From Pseudobdellovibrionaceae bacterium (GTDB lineage: Bacteria; Bdellovibrionota; Bdellovibrionia; Bdellovibrionales; Bdellovibrionaceae), in contig JAHBUV010000001.1 of NCBI GenBank assembly GCA_019637915.1, positions 372,001 to 436,000 on the forward strand: a stretch of 64,000 bases of DNA. The letters are read 5' to 3'. Made by a program: the position numbers and the translations under genes. Below the pieces are notes generated by a model. The model saw nothing but the letters and a program-made list of their open reading frames with translations, was not told the DNA's origin and did not search any database. Position 1 is the first letter of the stretch, and each line of letters begins with the position of its first letter. This document shows positions 555-42,621 of this stretch, one piece after another.

Positions 555-1075
555 ACAATTCGTCATGTGCCAGGATGGCGCGGGCCCTCTACAATCATGC
601 CATGGCGGAGAGAGATGAAAACCCCGGTGAACGTTTGGTGCGAGTGTTCAACAGCCTGGCTCCAGGTCAGATGGATGTCTTGGACAAGCTCTATTCCCCG
701 ATCATCGAATTCCGGGATCCTCGGCACGAATTCCACAACCTCAAAGACCTGAAGGAATTCCTGCACAATCAATATCAGCACGTGCAGAGCTGTCATTTCG
801 AGCCAAGCAAATTCGTGCATGCCGGTTTCACCACCGTGGTGGAATGGACGATGGCCCTGAAGCACCGCTACCTGAACCTCGGTCAGGAGATCACTCTGAA
901 GGGCGTCAGCGTCGTCACGGAAGACCCGATCAGCCGGCTGATCATCGAGCACCGGGATTATTTCGATGTCAGCGCCCTGGTGCTGAAGAGCATCCCCGGC
1001 ATGGATTTCCTGAAGAAATCCTTCCGCAAACTCGAGGAATTCGAAAAGTCTTTCTCGTCCCGAACCAAATCCTGA
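551..1075 (+). CDS. NTF2/SnoaL-like fold protein
   Basis: A 174-residue protein with the order typical of SnoaL-like (nuclear transport factor 2-like) proteins: an N-terminal helix, then a segment about an 'LDKLYSPIIEFRDP' stretch, then beta-strand-rich sequence ending in a short helical tail. Such proteins are cone-shaped ligand-binding or small isomerase/hydrolase folds; no specific substrate is evident. I chose the ATG at 551 because it overlaps the upstream stop as ATGA; an alternative start is the ATG at 602. The stop codon (1073-1075) is formed by the first bases of the palindromic repeat that follows. Confidence 0.65.
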   Translation: MNNSSCARMARALYNHAMAERDENPGERLVRVFNSLAPGQMDVLDKLYSPIIEFRDPRHEFHNLKDLKEFLHNQYQHVQSCHFEPSKFVHAGFTTVVEWTMALKHRYLNLGQEITLKGVSVVTEDPISRLIIEHRDYFDVSALVLKSIPGMDFLKKSFRKLEEFEKSFSSRTKS

Positions 1076-1183
1076 AGGTACCGCCTACTTTCTGGTATCC
1101 CGCCGCATCATCAACAGCCTCTTTCATCGATGGCTTGTGGTTATGACACGTAGGGATACCAGAAAGTAGGCGGTACCTTCAGG
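1071..1183. repeat. Palindromic repeat, copy 1 (shared by two convergent genes)
   Basis: Two 31-base arms, 1071-1101 and 1153-1183, are exact reverse complements and begin CCTGAAGGTACCGCC. The 51-base interior is not palindromic. The outer TGA of each arm serves as stop codon of the flanking convergent genes (plus gene ending at 1075, RND gene ending at 1179). The outer 27 bases of the arms recur at 28913-29039 and 30969-31095. It probably acts as a bidirectional transcript end and may be a miniature mobile or REP-like element. Confidence 0.85.
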
Positions 1184-27321: not shown

Positions 27322-28134
27322 ATGAAGGTCTTGATCCTGAGCCGCCGGCCCTCTTTGTATTCGCCCCGTCGCCTTCTCGAGGAGTTCGAGAAGGCCGGAC
27401 ATACGTCCGTCCTCCTGGACCCCGACCTGGGCGATGAGTGCCGGCAATTCGAGCCGCAAGTCATCGTGCCGCGTTTCGGGGCCTGGAAGTTCGAGGAGTC
27501 CTTGAGCCTGCTGCAATCCTTTGAAAAACGCCGCGTGCCTTGCGTGAACCGCCCGAACGCCCTGCGGGACGCGCGCCACAAATGGATCGCCTACCTGACC
27601 CTGCGCGAGGCCGAACTGCCCGTGCTGCCGACCTCCTGCCTGACGAAAGCGGAATTGCCCACGCAGTACCCCTATGTGGTGAAGATCCCGGATCTGTGCA
27701 AGGGCGAAGGGGTGTTTTTGATCCGCAAGCATGAAGACCGACTGGCTCTGCTGGGTCCCGCCGAAGTGCCCGAGTGGGTGATGCAGCCCTACATGGCTTA
27801 CGCCGAGGGGCGCGACCGCCGTTTCCTCGTCACCCGTGAAGAAGGCATCATCGCCGCCATCGAGCGCGAGGCCGCCGCCGGTGATTTCCGCAGCAACCTG
27901 TCCTTGGGGGGCCGGGGCCGCATCCATGAGCCCTCCGCCTTGGAAAAGCGCCTGGTGATGGACGCCTTGGACGTCTTTGGCCTGCATGTGGCCGGCGTGG
28001 ACCTGATGCTCACCCCGCAGGGCCCCATCATCAATGAGGTGAACGGCTGTCCGGGGCTGGAAGGTCTCGAAAAAATCACCGGCGTCAACGCCGCCGCGGC
28101 CTACGTGCGCCAGGCGGAGGCCCTGCTGCGCTGA
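27322..28134 (+). CDS. RimK-like ATP-grasp ligase
   Basis: A 270-residue ATP-grasp protein of the RimK class: N-terminal pre-ATP domain 'MKVLILSRRPSLYSPRRLLEEF', 'VNRPNALRDARHKW' (about 72-85), ATP-binding strand 'YPYVVKIPDLCKGEGVFLI', and the metal-binding 'GPIINEVNGCPGLEGLEKITG' near the C terminus. RimK family members add amino acids to protein or small-molecule carboxylates; the substrate here is not evident. ATG 27322. Divergent from the BFD-like gene. Confidence 0.88.
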   Translation: MKVLILSRRPSLYSPRRLLEEFEKAGHTSVLLDPDLGDECRQFEPQVIVPRFGAWKFEESLSLLQSFEKRRVPCVNRPNALRDARHKWIAYLTLREAELPVLPTSCLTKAELPTQYPYVVKIPDLCKGEGVFLIRKHEDRLALLGPAEVPEWVMQPYMAYAEGRDRRFLVTREEGIIAAIEREAAAGDFRSNLSLGGRGRIHEPSALEKRLVMDALDVFGLHVAGVDLMLTPQGPIINEVNGCPGLEGLEKITGVNAAAAYVRQAEALLR

Positions 28135-28187
28135 ACATTCACGCGGCTCGCCTTGATCCGCGCGGGCTCCCGGCCCACCATGGCCCC

Positions 28188-28913
28188 ATGACGGAAGCCG
28201 TGCACCTCGTGCCCATCCTGCAAGACAATTACGTGTTCGTGGCGGTCTCCCGCGACGGCCGCGCCGTGGTCGTCGATCCGGGCGAAGCGCGCGAGGTGCG
28301 GGACTTCCTGCGGGAGCGAGACTTGATCCTGGACGCCGTGCTGATCACCCACCATCACGGCGATCACGTGGGCGGCGTGGCGGAACTGCTCGCGACCACC
28401 AATCCCCTGGCGAAGGTCTTCGTCCCGCGCCGGGACCGCGGCCGCTGGGACTTCACAACGGATTTTGTTGATGAGGGGGATCTGGTCGAAACCGCCGGGT
28501 TTTCCTTCCGGGTGATGGCCCTGCCCGGCCATACCCTGGATCACGTGGCCTATCATGAGGAATCGCGGGGCTGGCTGTTCTCGGGCGACGTGCTGTTCGG
28601 TTTGGGCTGCGGCCGTCTTTTTGAAGGCACGCCGGCGATGATGCACCAAAGCCTGCGGCGCTTGACGGCACTGCCCGACGCCACGCGGGTCTTCTGCGCC
28701 CATGAGTACACGGAAACGAATTTGCGCTTCCTGCGCAGCCTCGATGAAACACGCGACTTGAGCGAACTGGAACAGGACGTGCGCGGCAAGCGGCGGCAGG
28801 GCCAACCGACCGTGCCGCTGTCCCTCGAGAGGGAAAAGCGCTGGAACCCTTTCCTGGGCGCCACAAACATCGCGGAGTTCACCACCCTCCGCGAACGCCG
28901 GAATCATTTCTGA
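28188..28913 (+). CDS. gloB: Hydroxyacylglutathione hydrolase (glyoxalase II)
   Basis: A 241-residue metallo-beta-lactamase-fold enzyme: 'ITHHHGDHVGGV' (THxHxDH metal motif, about 53-64), 'LPGHTLDHVAY', 'FSGDVLFGLGCGRLFEG' and 'CAHEYTETNLRF', the full set of glyoxalase II signatures. It hydrolyses S-D-lactoylglutathione to D-lactate and glutathione in the cytoplasm. The stop codon lies in the first bases of palindromic repeat copy 2. Confidence 0.93.
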   Translation: MTEAVHLVPILQDNYVFVAVSRDGRAVVVDPGEAREVRDFLRERDLILDAVLITHHHGDHVGGVAELLATTNPLAKVFVPRRDRGRWDFTTDFVDEGDLVETAGFSFRVMALPGHTLDHVAYHEESRGWLFSGDVLFGLGCGRLFEGTPAMMHQSLRRLTALPDATRVFCAHEYTETNLRFLRSLDETRDLSELEQDVRGKRRQGQPTVPLSLEREKRWNPFLGATNIAEFTTLRERRNHF

Positions 28914-29039
28914 AGGTACCGCCTACTTTCTGGTATCCCACCGCATTATCAATCTCGCGTTCCGGCCTTTCCACTCTGCAAGCAAAGAAAGACTGACCGG
29001 AGATAACGCGAAGTGATACCAGAAAGTAGGCGGTACCTT
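28913..29039. repeat. Palindromic repeat, copy 2
   Basis: 127 bases beginning AAGGTACCGCCTACTTTCTG and ending in the reverse complement. Against the reverse complement of copy 3 (30969-31095) I count only four base differences, all near one end of the interior. It ends gloB on one side and supplies the TAA of the exported protein on the other. Confidence 0.88.
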
Positions 29040-29465
29040 TTAAAACAGAACGCTCAGAACACCCACGGTCTGCTGCAATTCGCGGGCGACGGGGTTGTTG
29101 GCGCCGAGACAGCCCGTGAGCTGCTTCCTGCCGGAGATCGCCGTCACGAAACTGCGCGGGCAAAGGCCGCGGTCATTCGTCTTGCCTTTGGTTTTTTCGA
29201 TCTTCTCGCGAAGGAACTGGTAATCCGTTTGGCTGATGTCACGGACACCTTGGCTGCCGGCATTGTTCATGAATTTCACCGTCGCCCCTTTGGCAAACGG
29301 CGTGATAGAGAACTGGCTGACACGATCACCATAGACCACCTGAAAGCGCAGCTCATTCTTCGCCGGCGGAATGGCCGCGCGCGCGGTTTTCTTTTTCGCA
29401 GCGAAGGCCGGCGCGGCGGCCAAGGTCAGGGCGAGAATCAGTTGTTTGAACGCAAAAAACTTCAT
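29040..29465 (-). CDS. Small exported protein of unknown function
   Basis: A 141-residue protein with a signal peptide (1-22, 'AFAA'), a basic stretch 'KKKTARAA', then a mixed alpha/beta domain ('RFQVVYGDRVSQFSITPFAKG') with two cysteines near 101 and 118. It overlaps the metallopeptidase gene upstream by 4 bases (ATGA), so the two form a unit. The TAA stop is created by the edge of repeat copy 2. It may be a partner or substrate of the peptidase; that is inference from coupling only. Confidence 0.65.
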   Translation of the reverse strand: MKFFAFKQLILALTLAAAPAFAAKKKTARAAIPPAKNELRFQVVYGDRVSQFSITPFAKGATVKFMNNAGSQGVRDISQTDYQFLREKIEKTKGKTNDRGLCPRSFVTAISGRKQLTGCLGANNPVARELQQTVGVLSVLF

Positions 29466-30892
29466 TGGGTGCCTCCGGCGCCGGGAGCGGGAATCGCGGG
29501 ATATTCAGTCCCGCGTTGTTCGTTTTCCGCAGGCAGCTCCACCTCGGAATCACAATAAACGATCTCCGAATGTCGTTCCGGGCATCCCATTTGGCCTCGT
29601 GCTTTGGGTTGGCTCAGGACGATCTTGTTAATCCTCTCCGCCGCGTTCGGGTGGACCCCAACCGGGTTATTGGGGTCCATTTGCCAGCACAGCATCCGGT
29701 AAGCATTGGCATAACCATCCTGATATTGTCGCTGGTCCAGCTTGTGATTCTTTTCGATGTAGGATGGGAGAATCTCCATGGCCAGCCAATCACTGAAGCT
29801 TTCCGTGATTTGGTCCGCATCACAGAAGGGTTCCGGCTCGACCCGCTTTGTCCCATCAGAAGAGCCCACCGCGCCATGGCTATGACCATAACCCGCGAAG
29901 AACGTTCCGGCCGCTTTCTTCGCGCCGATGGAGTCTGAACGCCTCAAACAGGAAATCACGTTCCGGAAAGGAAATTGTTTCTCCAGTTTCTCGGTGGCGC
30001 CTTTATTTTGATATTTAAAACCAAGATCCTGTGGACCGTAGCCGATGAAACAGGGATCGATGCTGTGGGACAGCTCATGGGCGATGACCATTGCGATCTG
30101 AAACTCGCTGTTCGATTGCTGGCTGAAACCCGAGCAGTATTTAAAAATGTTCTTCGTGGGATTGTAGAAAGCGTTGGGAGTGAGCAAGGGGGAAAGGCCC
30201 TGCGTCGCATTGGGCGTCATATCCGAGCAATCCGACCCGTCGAAGCGGATACCTTTGATTTTGCCGATCATGAATTTTTTCTGAGCATCAGGAATCGAAA
30301 GCTGACCGATCCGCTGGGCAATCAAAGCCTTGATGTCCGGAAAAATGCGGTCCTGGATCTTCTTCTCCATTTTGGCATCCAGCAAGTCGACTCGTCCCTG
30401 CTGGCTGAGATCGGACACCACTGTCTGGTACTCATGGCTGTGCATGACATAGCTGATCTCTTTCAAGTTCATTCCTTGCGTGATGCCCGCCATGGGCATC
30501 ATGCTTCCCATGATCTGGCGCTGGGTCAGCGTCGTCAGCGCATCCAAGAGATTGTCATTGCAGGATTTTTGATCCTCCGACGATTCACTCAGGCATTGTG
30601 GCGATTTTTTCAATCCGAATGCGGCCAGTGCCTGGTCCTTGAAGTAGCTCTTTTCCGGGTCATCGAGGTATTTTTTGAAGCGTTCCTCGATGCGGCCACG
30701 GGATTTTTCCGCGTAATCCGCCATTTTCTTCTGAAAAGTCGACGAGCTGATCACTTCCCCCGTGGCATCCTTGTGAGTTCCCGGGGCACAGGAAATGCGG
30801 GCCAGGTCATTGCAGATCGGAGGAACTTGCGCCTGAGCGGCGATCGGCGCGACGGAGAGAAACATCGTGATGAAGACGCTTTTCGTTTTCAT
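29462..30892 (-). CDS. Exported HExxH zinc metallopeptidase
   Basis: A 476-residue protein with a signal peptide (1-21, 'AQAQ'). 'VIAHELSHSIDP' (about 272-283) is an HExxH zinc motif of the M13 (neprilysin)-like form, and 'TESFSDWLAMEIL' about 95 residues later supplies a plausible third-ligand glutamate. 'VGVHPNAAERINKI' near the C terminus matches the usual HP.A.eR motif after the active site. At least eight cysteines suggest disulfides. The base composition is less GC-rich than that of its neighbours, and the gene pair lies between inverted repeats. Confidence 0.8.
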   Translation of the reverse strand: MKTKSVFITMFLSVAPIAAQAQVPPICNDLARISCAPGTHKDATGEVISSSTFQKKMADYAEKSRGRIEERFKKYLDDPEKSYFKDQALAAFGLKKSPQCLSESSEDQKSCNDNLLDALTTLTQRQIMGSMMPMAGITQGMNLKEISYVMHSHEYQTVVSDLSQQGRVDLLDAKMEKKIQDRIFPDIKALIAQRIGQLSIPDAQKKFMIGKIKGIRFDGSDCSDMTPNATQGLSPLLTPNAFYNPTKNIFKYCSGFSQQSNSEFQIAMVIAHELSHSIDPCFIGYGPQDLGFKYQNKGATEKLEKQFPFRNVISCLRRSDSIGAKKAAGTFFAGYGHSHGAVGSSDGTKRVEPEPFCDADQITESFSDWLAMEILPSYIEKNHKLDQRQYQDGYANAYRMLCWQMDPNNPVGVHPNAAERINKIVLSQPKARGQMGCPERHSEIVYCDSEVELPAENEQRGTEYPAIPAPGAGGTQ

Positions 30893-30968
30893 GGCCCATC
30901 ATGGCACGCGGCACCCGCCCCTTCAATCCGCTCCGAATCTCCCCGGCGAAAGTCCAGAGAGCTTCCTG

Positions 30969-31095
30969 AAGGTACCGCCTACTTTCTGGTATCCCGCCGC
31001 GTTGTCTCCGGTCAGTCTTTCTTTGCTTGCAGAGTGGAAAGGCCGGAACGCGAGATTGATAATGCGGTGGGATACCAGAAAGTAGGCGGTACCTT
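30969..31095. repeat. Palindromic repeat, copy 3 (inverted relative to copy 2)
   Basis: 127 bases, the same length as copy 2 but in reverse orientation, with four differences. Its right end forms the TAA stop of the SDR-SRPBCC gene. Copies 2 and 3 flank 29040-30968. The 76 bases between the peptidase start (30892) and this repeat hold no gene and presumably the peptidase promoter. Confidence 0.88.
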
Positions 31096-32499
31096 TTATG
31101 CGAGGGCTGGTTTGCTGTGGCGGCCGAGGAGGGGGACCTGTCCGTAGATCTCGCCGATGGCTTCGCGGCGGTAGGTGAAGATCTTCTCCACGTCGGCGCG
31201 CACGAGGCCGTGGCCGCCGAGCCAGCCGAGGTAACCGCCCGGCAGGATGTAACGGACCGTGTCCGTCATCAGCGTGCCGGATCCCAGGCGTTCGAACTGG
31301 TGCGTGTGGTGCCAGAGCTTGTACGGCCCCTTCAATTGCGTGTCGACGAAATGAAAGGGCGGGTTCCAGTCCTCGATGCGCGTGCGCCACTTCACCGGCA
31401 GGCCGTGGACTTTCAACCGGTACTCGATCTCGGTGCCGCTCTGAATGTCCACGGGATGCATCGACAGCACGTGGAAATCCAGCATGGGCGGCGTCAGGCG
31501 CGCCAGATTCCCCGCCTCGCAGAAAAACGGGAACAGCTGGTCCGGCGGCAACGGCAGGTACTGCTCCGCCACGAAGATCTGCTCGCCGCGGTTGTAGGGA
31601 ACCAGCAGATCGAACAAAGCCGTCTTGAGATCGTGGAACAGGAAATCATAACCCGTGCGTCGGATCATGACGGACGAGACCTTCTGCGAATCCGTGATGA
31701 TCTGGGCCTTTTCCCCGAGCAAGGGCCGCAGCGCCCATTTCGGCGCCGCCATCAGGTGAGGACGGCGCACGATCGCGGCCAAGGTCTTCACGAAATCGCG
31801 GTGGCGCACCGGCTGCGGGGCCACGGCGTTGAAAGAGCCTTTCAAACCCACGTTGTCGAAGGCGTGCAGGAAAAGCCCCACGGCGTCCTCGAGATGGATC
31901 CAACTCATCCATTGCCCGCCCCCGCCGAGGGAGCCGCCCACACCCGCCAGGAACGGCGTCAGCATCTCGTTGAGGGCCCCGCCCTTGTGCGAGAGCACCA
32001 CGCCCAGACGCAGGCAGACGACGCGGGTGCCGTCCTCGGAAAAAGCCTTCGCCTCTTTTTCCCAGGCCACGCACAGCTGCGCCAGGAAGTCCGTGCCGGC
32101 GGCGGCGTTTTCGGTGAGCTCCTCTTCCCCGCGGTCGCCGTAAAATCCCACGGCGGAGGCCGAGACCAGGGTCTTCACCGGCGTGCGGAAACTGGCGCGC
32201 AGGTGGCGCAAGGACAGCACGCGGGAATCCACCAGGCGTTTTTTCTTTTTCGAGGTCCAACGGCCCTCGGCGACGGAATCCCCGAGCAGGTGGATCACCG
32301 CCTCGACGCCCTCGAGGCGGGCCGGCGGCAAAGGCCCCTGCAGAAGATCGCCCTCGATCACCTCGCAAGGAAAGGGGCATTGCAACCGCGCTTTGCGCTG
32401 GTCGCGGGAGACCACGCAGACTTCGTGCCCGGCCCGCACCAGGGCTTTGCCGAGCTCCTTGCCGATCAGTCCGGTGGCTCCGGTCAGGAGGATTTTCAT
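31096..32499 (-). CDS. TIGR01777-type SDR epimerase fused to SRPBCC domain
   Basis: A 467-residue fusion. Residues 1-300: NAD(P)-binding SDR 'GATGLIGKELGKAL', 'VIHLLGDSVAEGRW', 'SASAVGFYGDRGEEELTE' and a C-terminal DUF1731-type segment ('APKWALRPLLGEKAQIITDSQKV'), as in YfcH/TIGR01777 proteins. Residues 310-467: an SRPBCC (START-like) domain, 'QYLPLPPDQLFPFFCEAGNLARLTPP' through 'YILPGGYLGWLGG'. The second domain usually occurs as a separate 150-residue protein. It overlaps the photolyase gene upstream by 4 bases. Substrate unknown. Confidence 0.88.
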   Translation of the reverse strand: MKILLTGATGLIGKELGKALVRAGHEVCVVSRDQRKARLQCPFPCEVIEGDLLQGPLPPARLEGVEAVIHLLGDSVAEGRWTSKKKKRLVDSRVLSLRHLRASFRTPVKTLVSASAVGFYGDRGEEELTENAAAGTDFLAQLCVAWEKEAKAFSEDGTRVVCLRLGVVLSHKGGALNEMLTPFLAGVGGSLGGGGQWMSWIHLEDAVGLFLHAFDNVGLKGSFNAVAPQPVRHRDFVKTLAAIVRRPHLMAAPKWALRPLLGEKAQIITDSQKVSSVMIRRTGYDFLFHDLKTALFDLLVPYNRGEQIFVAEQYLPLPPDQLFPFFCEAGNLARLTPPMLDFHVLSMHPVDIQSGTEIEYRLKVHGLPVKWRTRIEDWNPPFHFVDTQLKGPYKLWHHTHQFERLGSGTLMTDTVRYILPGGYLGWLGGHGLVRADVEKIFTYRREAIGEIYGQVPLLGRHSKPALA

Positions 32500-33812
32500 A
32501 CCGCGGCTCCTTTCAAGGCGGCGGCGTAAGCGCGCAGAGCGCGGCCGCGGGCCTCGTCGTGGTTCACCAAAGGCTTGAGCGCCCCGGCGCTGCCCCATTC
32601 CGGCACCCAACGACGGATGTACTCACCGTCAGGGTCGAATTTTTTCGCCTGGGTCAGGGGATTGAAAATGCGGAAGTACGGGGCGGCGTCGCAGCCGCTG
32701 CCCGCCGCCCACTGCCAGTTGCCGTTGTTGGCGGAGAGGTCATAGTCCAGCAGGCGGCGCGCGAAATAGGCTTCGCCCTCGCGCCAGTGGATCAGCAGGT
32801 GCTTGCAGAGGAAACTCGCCGTCACCATGCGCGCCCGGTTGTGCATGAATCCCGTGGCGTTGAGCTCGCGCATGCCGGCGTCGACCAAAGGATAACCGGT
32901 TTTCCCTTCCGCCCAGCGCTCGAAATCGCGCCGGGAGTTCCGCCAGGCGATGTCATCGTACTCCGGCCGGAAGGACCGCTCCACCACGCGGGGATGATGC
33001 CAAAGAATCTGCTTGAAGAAATCCCGCCAGATCAATTCCGACAGCCAGGTGGCGTTGAGCTCACGCCCCAGGCGGGCCAGGGCGCGCACGCTGACCGTGC
33101 CAAAACGCAGGTGCGGACCCAGATGGGTCGTGCCGTTTTCCAACGCGGGGAAATCCCGGGTCTTGTCGTAATCGCGGATGAGGGCCTTGGACAGCCGGCG
33201 CGGCGGGGCTTTGAGCAGGCTGCGCGTGAAACCGAGTTCTCCGAGGGACGGCAATTCCTCCCGGGATTTCGGGCGATGGAAATGACCCCGGTGACGCCCC
33301 CAGGAGAAAGGTTTCAAATCCTGCTCCGAAAGACGCTTGAGCACCTTGTTCTTGTAAGGCGTGAAGACGGTGTAAGGCCGGCCGGCTTCCGTCAGCACCT
33401 CGTCCCTCTCGAAAAGGGATTGATCCTTGGAGGACTTCACCTCGATGCCTTGGCCGCGCAGGAACCCGCTCACTTCCTCGTCGCGGCGGCGGGCCGCGGG
33501 CTCGTCGTCATGATTGAAGTACACGGCGCGCACGCGGTGCTCGCGCACGAGCTTTTTCCAGACGTCCAAAGGCGGACCCCGGCGCGTCCACAGCTCGGCT
33601 CCCTCTTCGCGCAAGGCCTCCCGCAGAAAACCCAGGCTGTCATGAAGGAAACTGACGCGGGCGTCATCCCGGTCTTCCAGACGCCCCAGAATGTCCGTAT
33701 CGAAAATAAAAAGGGGTTGAACCGCTCTTTGCTCCGACAAAGCGTGAAAAAGTCCCGCATTGTCTTCCAAACGCAGGTCACGACGGAACCAAAAAACGGT
33801 GATTTCGGACAT
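32496..33812 (-). CDS. phr: Cryptochrome/DNA photolyase
   Basis: A 438-residue protein: N-terminal photolyase alpha/beta domain 'VFWFRRDLRLEDNAGLFHAL', and the FAD-binding C-terminal domain 'ELIWRDFFKQILWHHPRVV', 'GYPLVDAGMRELNATGFMHNRARMV', 'NNGNWQWAAGSGCDAAPYFRIFNP'. These match class I CPD photolyases, which repair UV dimers with blue light. The conserved tryptophans of the electron chain appear to be present. Forms a unit with the SDR-SRPBCC gene; such pairing is seen in several genomes. Start ATG 33812. Confidence 0.93.
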   Translation of the reverse strand: MSEITVFWFRRDLRLEDNAGLFHALSEQRAVQPLFIFDTDILGRLEDRDDARVSFLHDSLGFLREALREEGAELWTRRGPPLDVWKKLVREHRVRAVYFNHDDEPAARRRDEEVSGFLRGQGIEVKSSKDQSLFERDEVLTEAGRPYTVFTPYKNKVLKRLSEQDLKPFSWGRHRGHFHRPKSREELPSLGELGFTRSLLKAPPRRLSKALIRDYDKTRDFPALENGTTHLGPHLRFGTVSVRALARLGRELNATWLSELIWRDFFKQILWHHPRVVERSFRPEYDDIAWRNSRRDFERWAEGKTGYPLVDAGMRELNATGFMHNRARMVTASFLCKHLLIHWREGEAYFARRLLDYDLSANNGNWQWAAGSGCDAAPYFRIFNPLTQAKKFDPDGEYIRRWVPEWGSAGALKPLVNHDEARGRALRAYAAALKGAAV

Positions 33813-42549: not shown

Positions 42550-42565
42550 GACTCGCGTCCAAGGT

Positions 42566-42612
42566 CACAGTTCCCTTTTTGTCGCGCGATGCGCGACAAA
42601 AAAGGAACTGTG
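42566..42612. terminator. Long inverted-repeat hairpin between convergent genes
   Basis: Two 22-base arms (CACAGTTCCC... / ...GGAACTGTG) separated by GAT, with one mismatch, contain T- and A-runs next to a GTCGCGC/GCGCGAC stem, so each strand makes a terminator. A related half copy occurs at 20185-20209, so this is a dispersed repeat doing the work of a terminator. Confidence 0.75.
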
Positions 42613-42621
42613 GCCGACGAC

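Follow-up and report, generated by a model that had tools for sequence, protein, structure and literature searches.

The window is the whole stretch of 64,000 nucleotides that was analysed. The locus under study lies between two convergent genes and was read as follows:

28188..28913, + strand: hydroxyacylglutathione hydrolase-like gene (Lactamase_B and HAGH_C), flank
28913..29039, + strand: REPIN-like dimer A, 127 bp, arms at 28913-28937 (+) and 29015-29039 (−)
29040..29465, − strand: small exported partner with a predicted Mago-like fold, 141 aa, overlapping the peptidase gene by 4 nt
29462..30892, − strand: exported HExxH zinc peptidase with a predicted M13/neprilysin-like fold, 476 aa, HELSH
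30969..31095, − strand: REPIN-like dimer B, the inverted sister copy of A, directly 3' of the epimerase stop codon
31096..32499, − strand: epimerase/DUF1731 gene, 467 aa from the ATG at 32499, flank

The repeats at 28913-29039 and 30969-31095 were 127 nt each, inverted to one another and 97% alike, which agrees with the 127-bp inverted copies with four differences described in the initial annotation. All four differences between A and B fell inside 11 nt of one arm, and the identity ended abruptly at AAGG...CCTT, i.e., exactly at the element ends. Each repeat was itself a near-palindrome, with 38-nt inverted ends and 51 nt in the middle, and the outer stems of 25 and 27 bp were perfect. No Rfam match was found in positions 28000-32500. 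Between the repeats, the initial annotation had also placed an HExxH peptidase with a signal peptide and, coupled to it, a small exported protein; both were recovered, the peptidase with HELSH and the two genes with their 4-nt overlap.

The 476-aa protein is predicted to be a compact, divergent neprilysin/PepO-like protein of the M13 fold. Its model (mean pLDDT 74) matched neprilysin, ECE-1, PepO, and Zmp1 with VIA Z values of 17-19, and the next family reached 6.8. NAFY (240-243), HELSH (272-276), and ESFSD (364-368) agree with the M13 motifs, and the likeness to M13 peptidases (neprilysin, PepO, Zmp1) consists of the predicted fold and these motifs. M13 peptidases have about 620-700 aa, whereas the present protein is shorter, was hit by no Pfam M13 profile with an E-value of 1 or below, and has the gene of a small exported partner directly downstream. 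Searches by sequence returned no useful solved relatives. An assignment to M48, for which the Pfam match was weak and below the cut-off, was rejected and replaced by the M13-like fold. Zinc peptidase activity is predicted from the motifs only.

The small gene lay directly downstream of the peptidase gene in 8/8 loci examined, and two cysteines were invariant in the five aligned partner sequences. In the partner model, a block with pLDDT above 80 began at about residue 41. Comparison with Mago nashi gave VIA Z 9-10 and an rmsd of 3.0 over about 100-105 residues, against a background of about 4; Foldseek alone gave no significant match to the model, with nothing below E 0.07. The partner is therefore predicted, from its model, to have a Mago nashi-like fold, which is odd for an exported bacterial protein. 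It may act as an inhibitor, as a chaperone, or in self-protection.

The pair was probably inserted in this lineage, because four relatives (G006, G013, G010, and the congener G001) carry the hydrolase and epimerase genes side by side and pointing towards one another, with no peptidase gene in between. All four could have lost it, but a gain here is more likely. The lower GC that had been noted for the cassette genes was borne out. The peptidase gene had the lowest GC (0.532) and the lowest GC3 (0.656) among the 46 window genes, which were called by a simple codon score with no gene finder (average GC 0.619, sd 0.033), and the small gene (0.573) had the fifth lowest GC. Conserved synteny of the cassette lacking the repeats, with a composition equal to that of its neighbours, was not encountered. 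Homologues of the peptidase were patchy (17/144 genomes of the class) and showed about 23-46% identity over aligned lengths that vary; the named homologues of the pair came from Bdellovibrionota MAGs. The cassette was found in one copy in the genome. At the hydrolase/epimerase junction of the congener there was an unrelated 201-bp palindrome (C216:5036-5236; L096:2430-2640), which belongs to a family of its own that gave dozens of matches across that genome.

We searched the genome (3.32 Mb, 14 contigs, 99.8% complete) with the arm sequence of the repeats, GGTACCGCCTACTTTCTGGTATC, and the element positions and spacers were read from the searched stretches. At no more than three mismatches, 36 arm copies were found, and the reversed-arm control gave 0. 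Most of these arms were paired in 14 inverted dimers; the others formed two gene-bounding pairs or stood singly (four). All 14 dimers had AAGGTA...TACCTT ends, their spacers were as short as a few bases and as long as about 140, and several were near-perfect hairpins with stems up to 45 bp. One more dimer of the family lay in the window:

1075..1179, no strand assigned: third same-family dimer, with a spacer unrelated to that of A and B, filling a convergent gene junction

As a chance match in the window, 0 such dimers would be expected. A and B were the only dimers of the arm family with a shared spacer, and they lay about 2 kb apart, a distance with a chance of about 0.1% for a given pair. 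The arm was absent from all 65 further family genomes. In a set of about 85,000 genomes, from which the present genome itself may be missing, it was found in 0 other species.

One of the two gene-bounding pairs, with its arms in inverted orientation, enclosed a transposase gene:

C1:2222738-2223430, between inverted arms at 2222577 (+) and 2223387 (−): RAYT/TnpAREP-like Y1 (HUH) transposase gene

Its product matched Pfam Y1_Tnp with 31.4 bits (cut-off 23). The match to NCBIfam REP_Tyr_transpos had an E-value of 2.9e-15, yet it stayed under the NCBIfam cut-off. The best solved relative was TnpArep 4er8, whose catalytic tyrosine is Y115 (PMC8266576); Y120 of the present protein aligned with Y115, and an HYH motif was present. 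This transposase is likely the partner of the element family. Transposases of the RAYT type were found in 37/60 relatives. A second RAYT gene (C1:670750-671367; L073:2606-3465) had a 69-nt inverted repeat of its own, and the motif AGGTGCCAGGTCCTG, related to that repeat, formed a perfect inverted repeat adjoining an isochorismatase unit (L061:5401-5461).

The repeats form a REPIN-like family that is private to this genome and belongs to the 'TIRtron' type, the name given to units in which a RAYT-like gene is combined with inverted repeats unrelated to GTAG REPs (PMC3733652). With the published TIRtron/TIRYT systems they share inverted terminal repeats on both sides of a RAYT-like Y1 tyrosine transposase gene, the dispersal of the repeats as singles and dimers (besides the gene-bounding pairs), and the HUH motif with a catalytic Tyr, here HYH and Y120 (PMC3733652). 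In contrast to those systems, the arm sequence is new and private to this genome, most dimer spacers are unrelated, and many dimers are near-perfect long hairpins. With the GTAG REPIN/RAYT systems (PMC2817692, PMC3116915) the family has in common the extragenic, inverted REP-like doublets and the transposase gene between two inverted copies. However, the 5' GTAG/GTGG head before the hairpin is absent, GTAG occurs only in the arm stem with no hairpin 3' of it, and the 36 arms compare with usually more than 100 copies per genome. The kind of element is thus already known, and the family is new. The repeats had first been read as the frame of the cassette; they are instead two of 14 dispersed dimers, both in the usual stop-codon position, with the RAYT gene located elsewhere.

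For 19/22 listed elements or arms, the distance to a stop codon was −3 to +11 nt, and at convergent pairs the element occupied the entire gap between the genes. Other convergent genes in the window were often −4 to +5 nt apart with no element between them. Because convergent genes are so tightly packed, an element that survives there abuts both stops. Dimer A separated the stop of the hydrolase gene from that of the small-protein gene, with which it converges, and B lay behind the epimerase stop, so both are in the standard position of the family. Since the hydrolase and epimerase genes converge, A and B, although mutually inverted, are oriented alike with respect to their upstream genes. The GTAG and CGTC families have likewise been reported close to the 3' ends of convergent genes (PMC3733652). 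Another convergent junction (42550-42621) held a strong hairpin of the CCTTTTTTGTCGCG type, which is unrelated to the arm family.

Abutment on stop codons and folding into long stems would also be expected if the repeats were selected bidirectional transcription terminators or stabilisers of mRNA ends and not selfish elements. We consider this improbable. A T-run terminator signal was sought at the repeats and none was found, the repeats are missing from every other genome of the family, and the compact convergent gaps elsewhere in the window do without them. A terminator role and mobility could be compatible.

The initial annotation had suggested that the cassette could have been inserted by recombination, or could invert or delete between the repeats. 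An insertion is supported by the empty sites and the low GC, but the repeats are not special to the cassette. A related reading is that A, the operon, and B form a composite mobile unit, for which the RAYT took the outermost dimer arms as ends and the operon as cargo. In favour of such a unit, its outer ends coincide exactly with the stop codons of the genes on either side, A and B are the sole sister pair and are close together, the junction is empty in four relatives, and the cassette is low in GC. Moreover, an isochorismatase gene likewise lies between two matching 42-nt arms, as in the RAYT unit. We nevertheless regard the composite unit as unlikely. The operon is single-copy, and the same cargo with both ends was not found at a second locus; A and B stand at standard element positions; and no other family genome has the arm, even those that have peptidase homologues. 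In other genera the peptidase and its partner were present without the arm, and no strong inverted pair was found around the peptidase homologues in G026, G019, and G018.

The only other close pair of dimers also counts against the composite unit. These 57-bp hairpins, at 596676 and 598341 (C1:596676-598397; L058:2677-4398), are 1.7 kb apart, and between them lie a methyltransferase gene and one of 137 aa. In six relatives, none of which has the arm, the methyltransferase gene likewise adjoins a dhs-like gene. Because this pair encloses syntenic genes, element pairs can arise around resident genes, and flanking repeats by themselves imply no mobilisation.

The isochorismatase-domain gene (C1:3198488-3199499; L061:4489-5500) lies between 42-nt arms of the family that match at 98%, and the left arm abuts the pstB stop codon. 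The unit was rejected as a proven insertion, because relatives do not have its two neighbours side by side and an empty site therefore cannot be defined. It is unlikely, slightly more so than the composite unit itself, that RAYT-linked inverted dimers can carry unrelated cargo, with A-operon-B moved jointly and the isochorismatase unit as a second, single-arm example. If true, REPIN-like elements would be composite gene movers. In the literature searched, no report of REP- or RAYT-bounded cargo was found.

The order of events could also be different, a dimer having come first to fill the convergent junction, with the operon then inserted beside or into it while the second dimer copy was made. 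Several other convergent junctions are filled by single dimers, and the congener has its one unrelated palindrome at the same junction. However, target duplication yields direct and not inverted copies, and the mechanism is not evident; we hold this course to be just as unlikely as the composite unit. Far less probable than any of these is an invertible switch in which the operon is flipped when A recombines with B. Inverted 127-bp copies 1.9 kb apart would provide the substrate, but neither a recombinase nor a promoter arrangement that would make flipping matter was seen. As the operon lies wholly inside the repeats, start region included, flipping would not obviously alter its expression.

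We therefore favour, with good though not full confidence, the reading that the 127-bp repeats belong to a dispersed, non-autonomous hairpin family with the RAYT as its likely partner, and that the operon entered the junction separately. This reading is based on the arms that bound the RAYT gene, their 36 occurrences in this genome only, the long stems, the position against stop codons, and the likeness of A and B that stops at the element ends. The transposase would recognise the folded arms on single strands and would copy or insert the element, and local copying may have produced B from A, or A from B. The peptidase-partner operon would be a separate accessory module at the phylum level, which reached the hydrolase/epimerase junction in this lineage apart from the elements, and the elements would have settled in the gene ends present there. 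Counting against separate arrival, the sole sister pair is 2 kb apart and borders the insertion, which joint arrival could fit too. Counting against the RAYT assignment are the match below the NCBIfam cut-off and arms that have no typical 5' GTAG head.

These results document a genome-private, RAYT-linked hairpin family in a relative of the Bdellovibrionaceae. They also carry the warning that a gene pair framed by inverted repeats need not have been moved by them. The gene pair, a compact neprilysin-like exported peptidase with a predicted Mago-like small exported partner, merits more attention. Should the partner turn out to act as inhibitor or chaperone, the two would be a new pair for peptidase control among predatory bacteria and related organisms.
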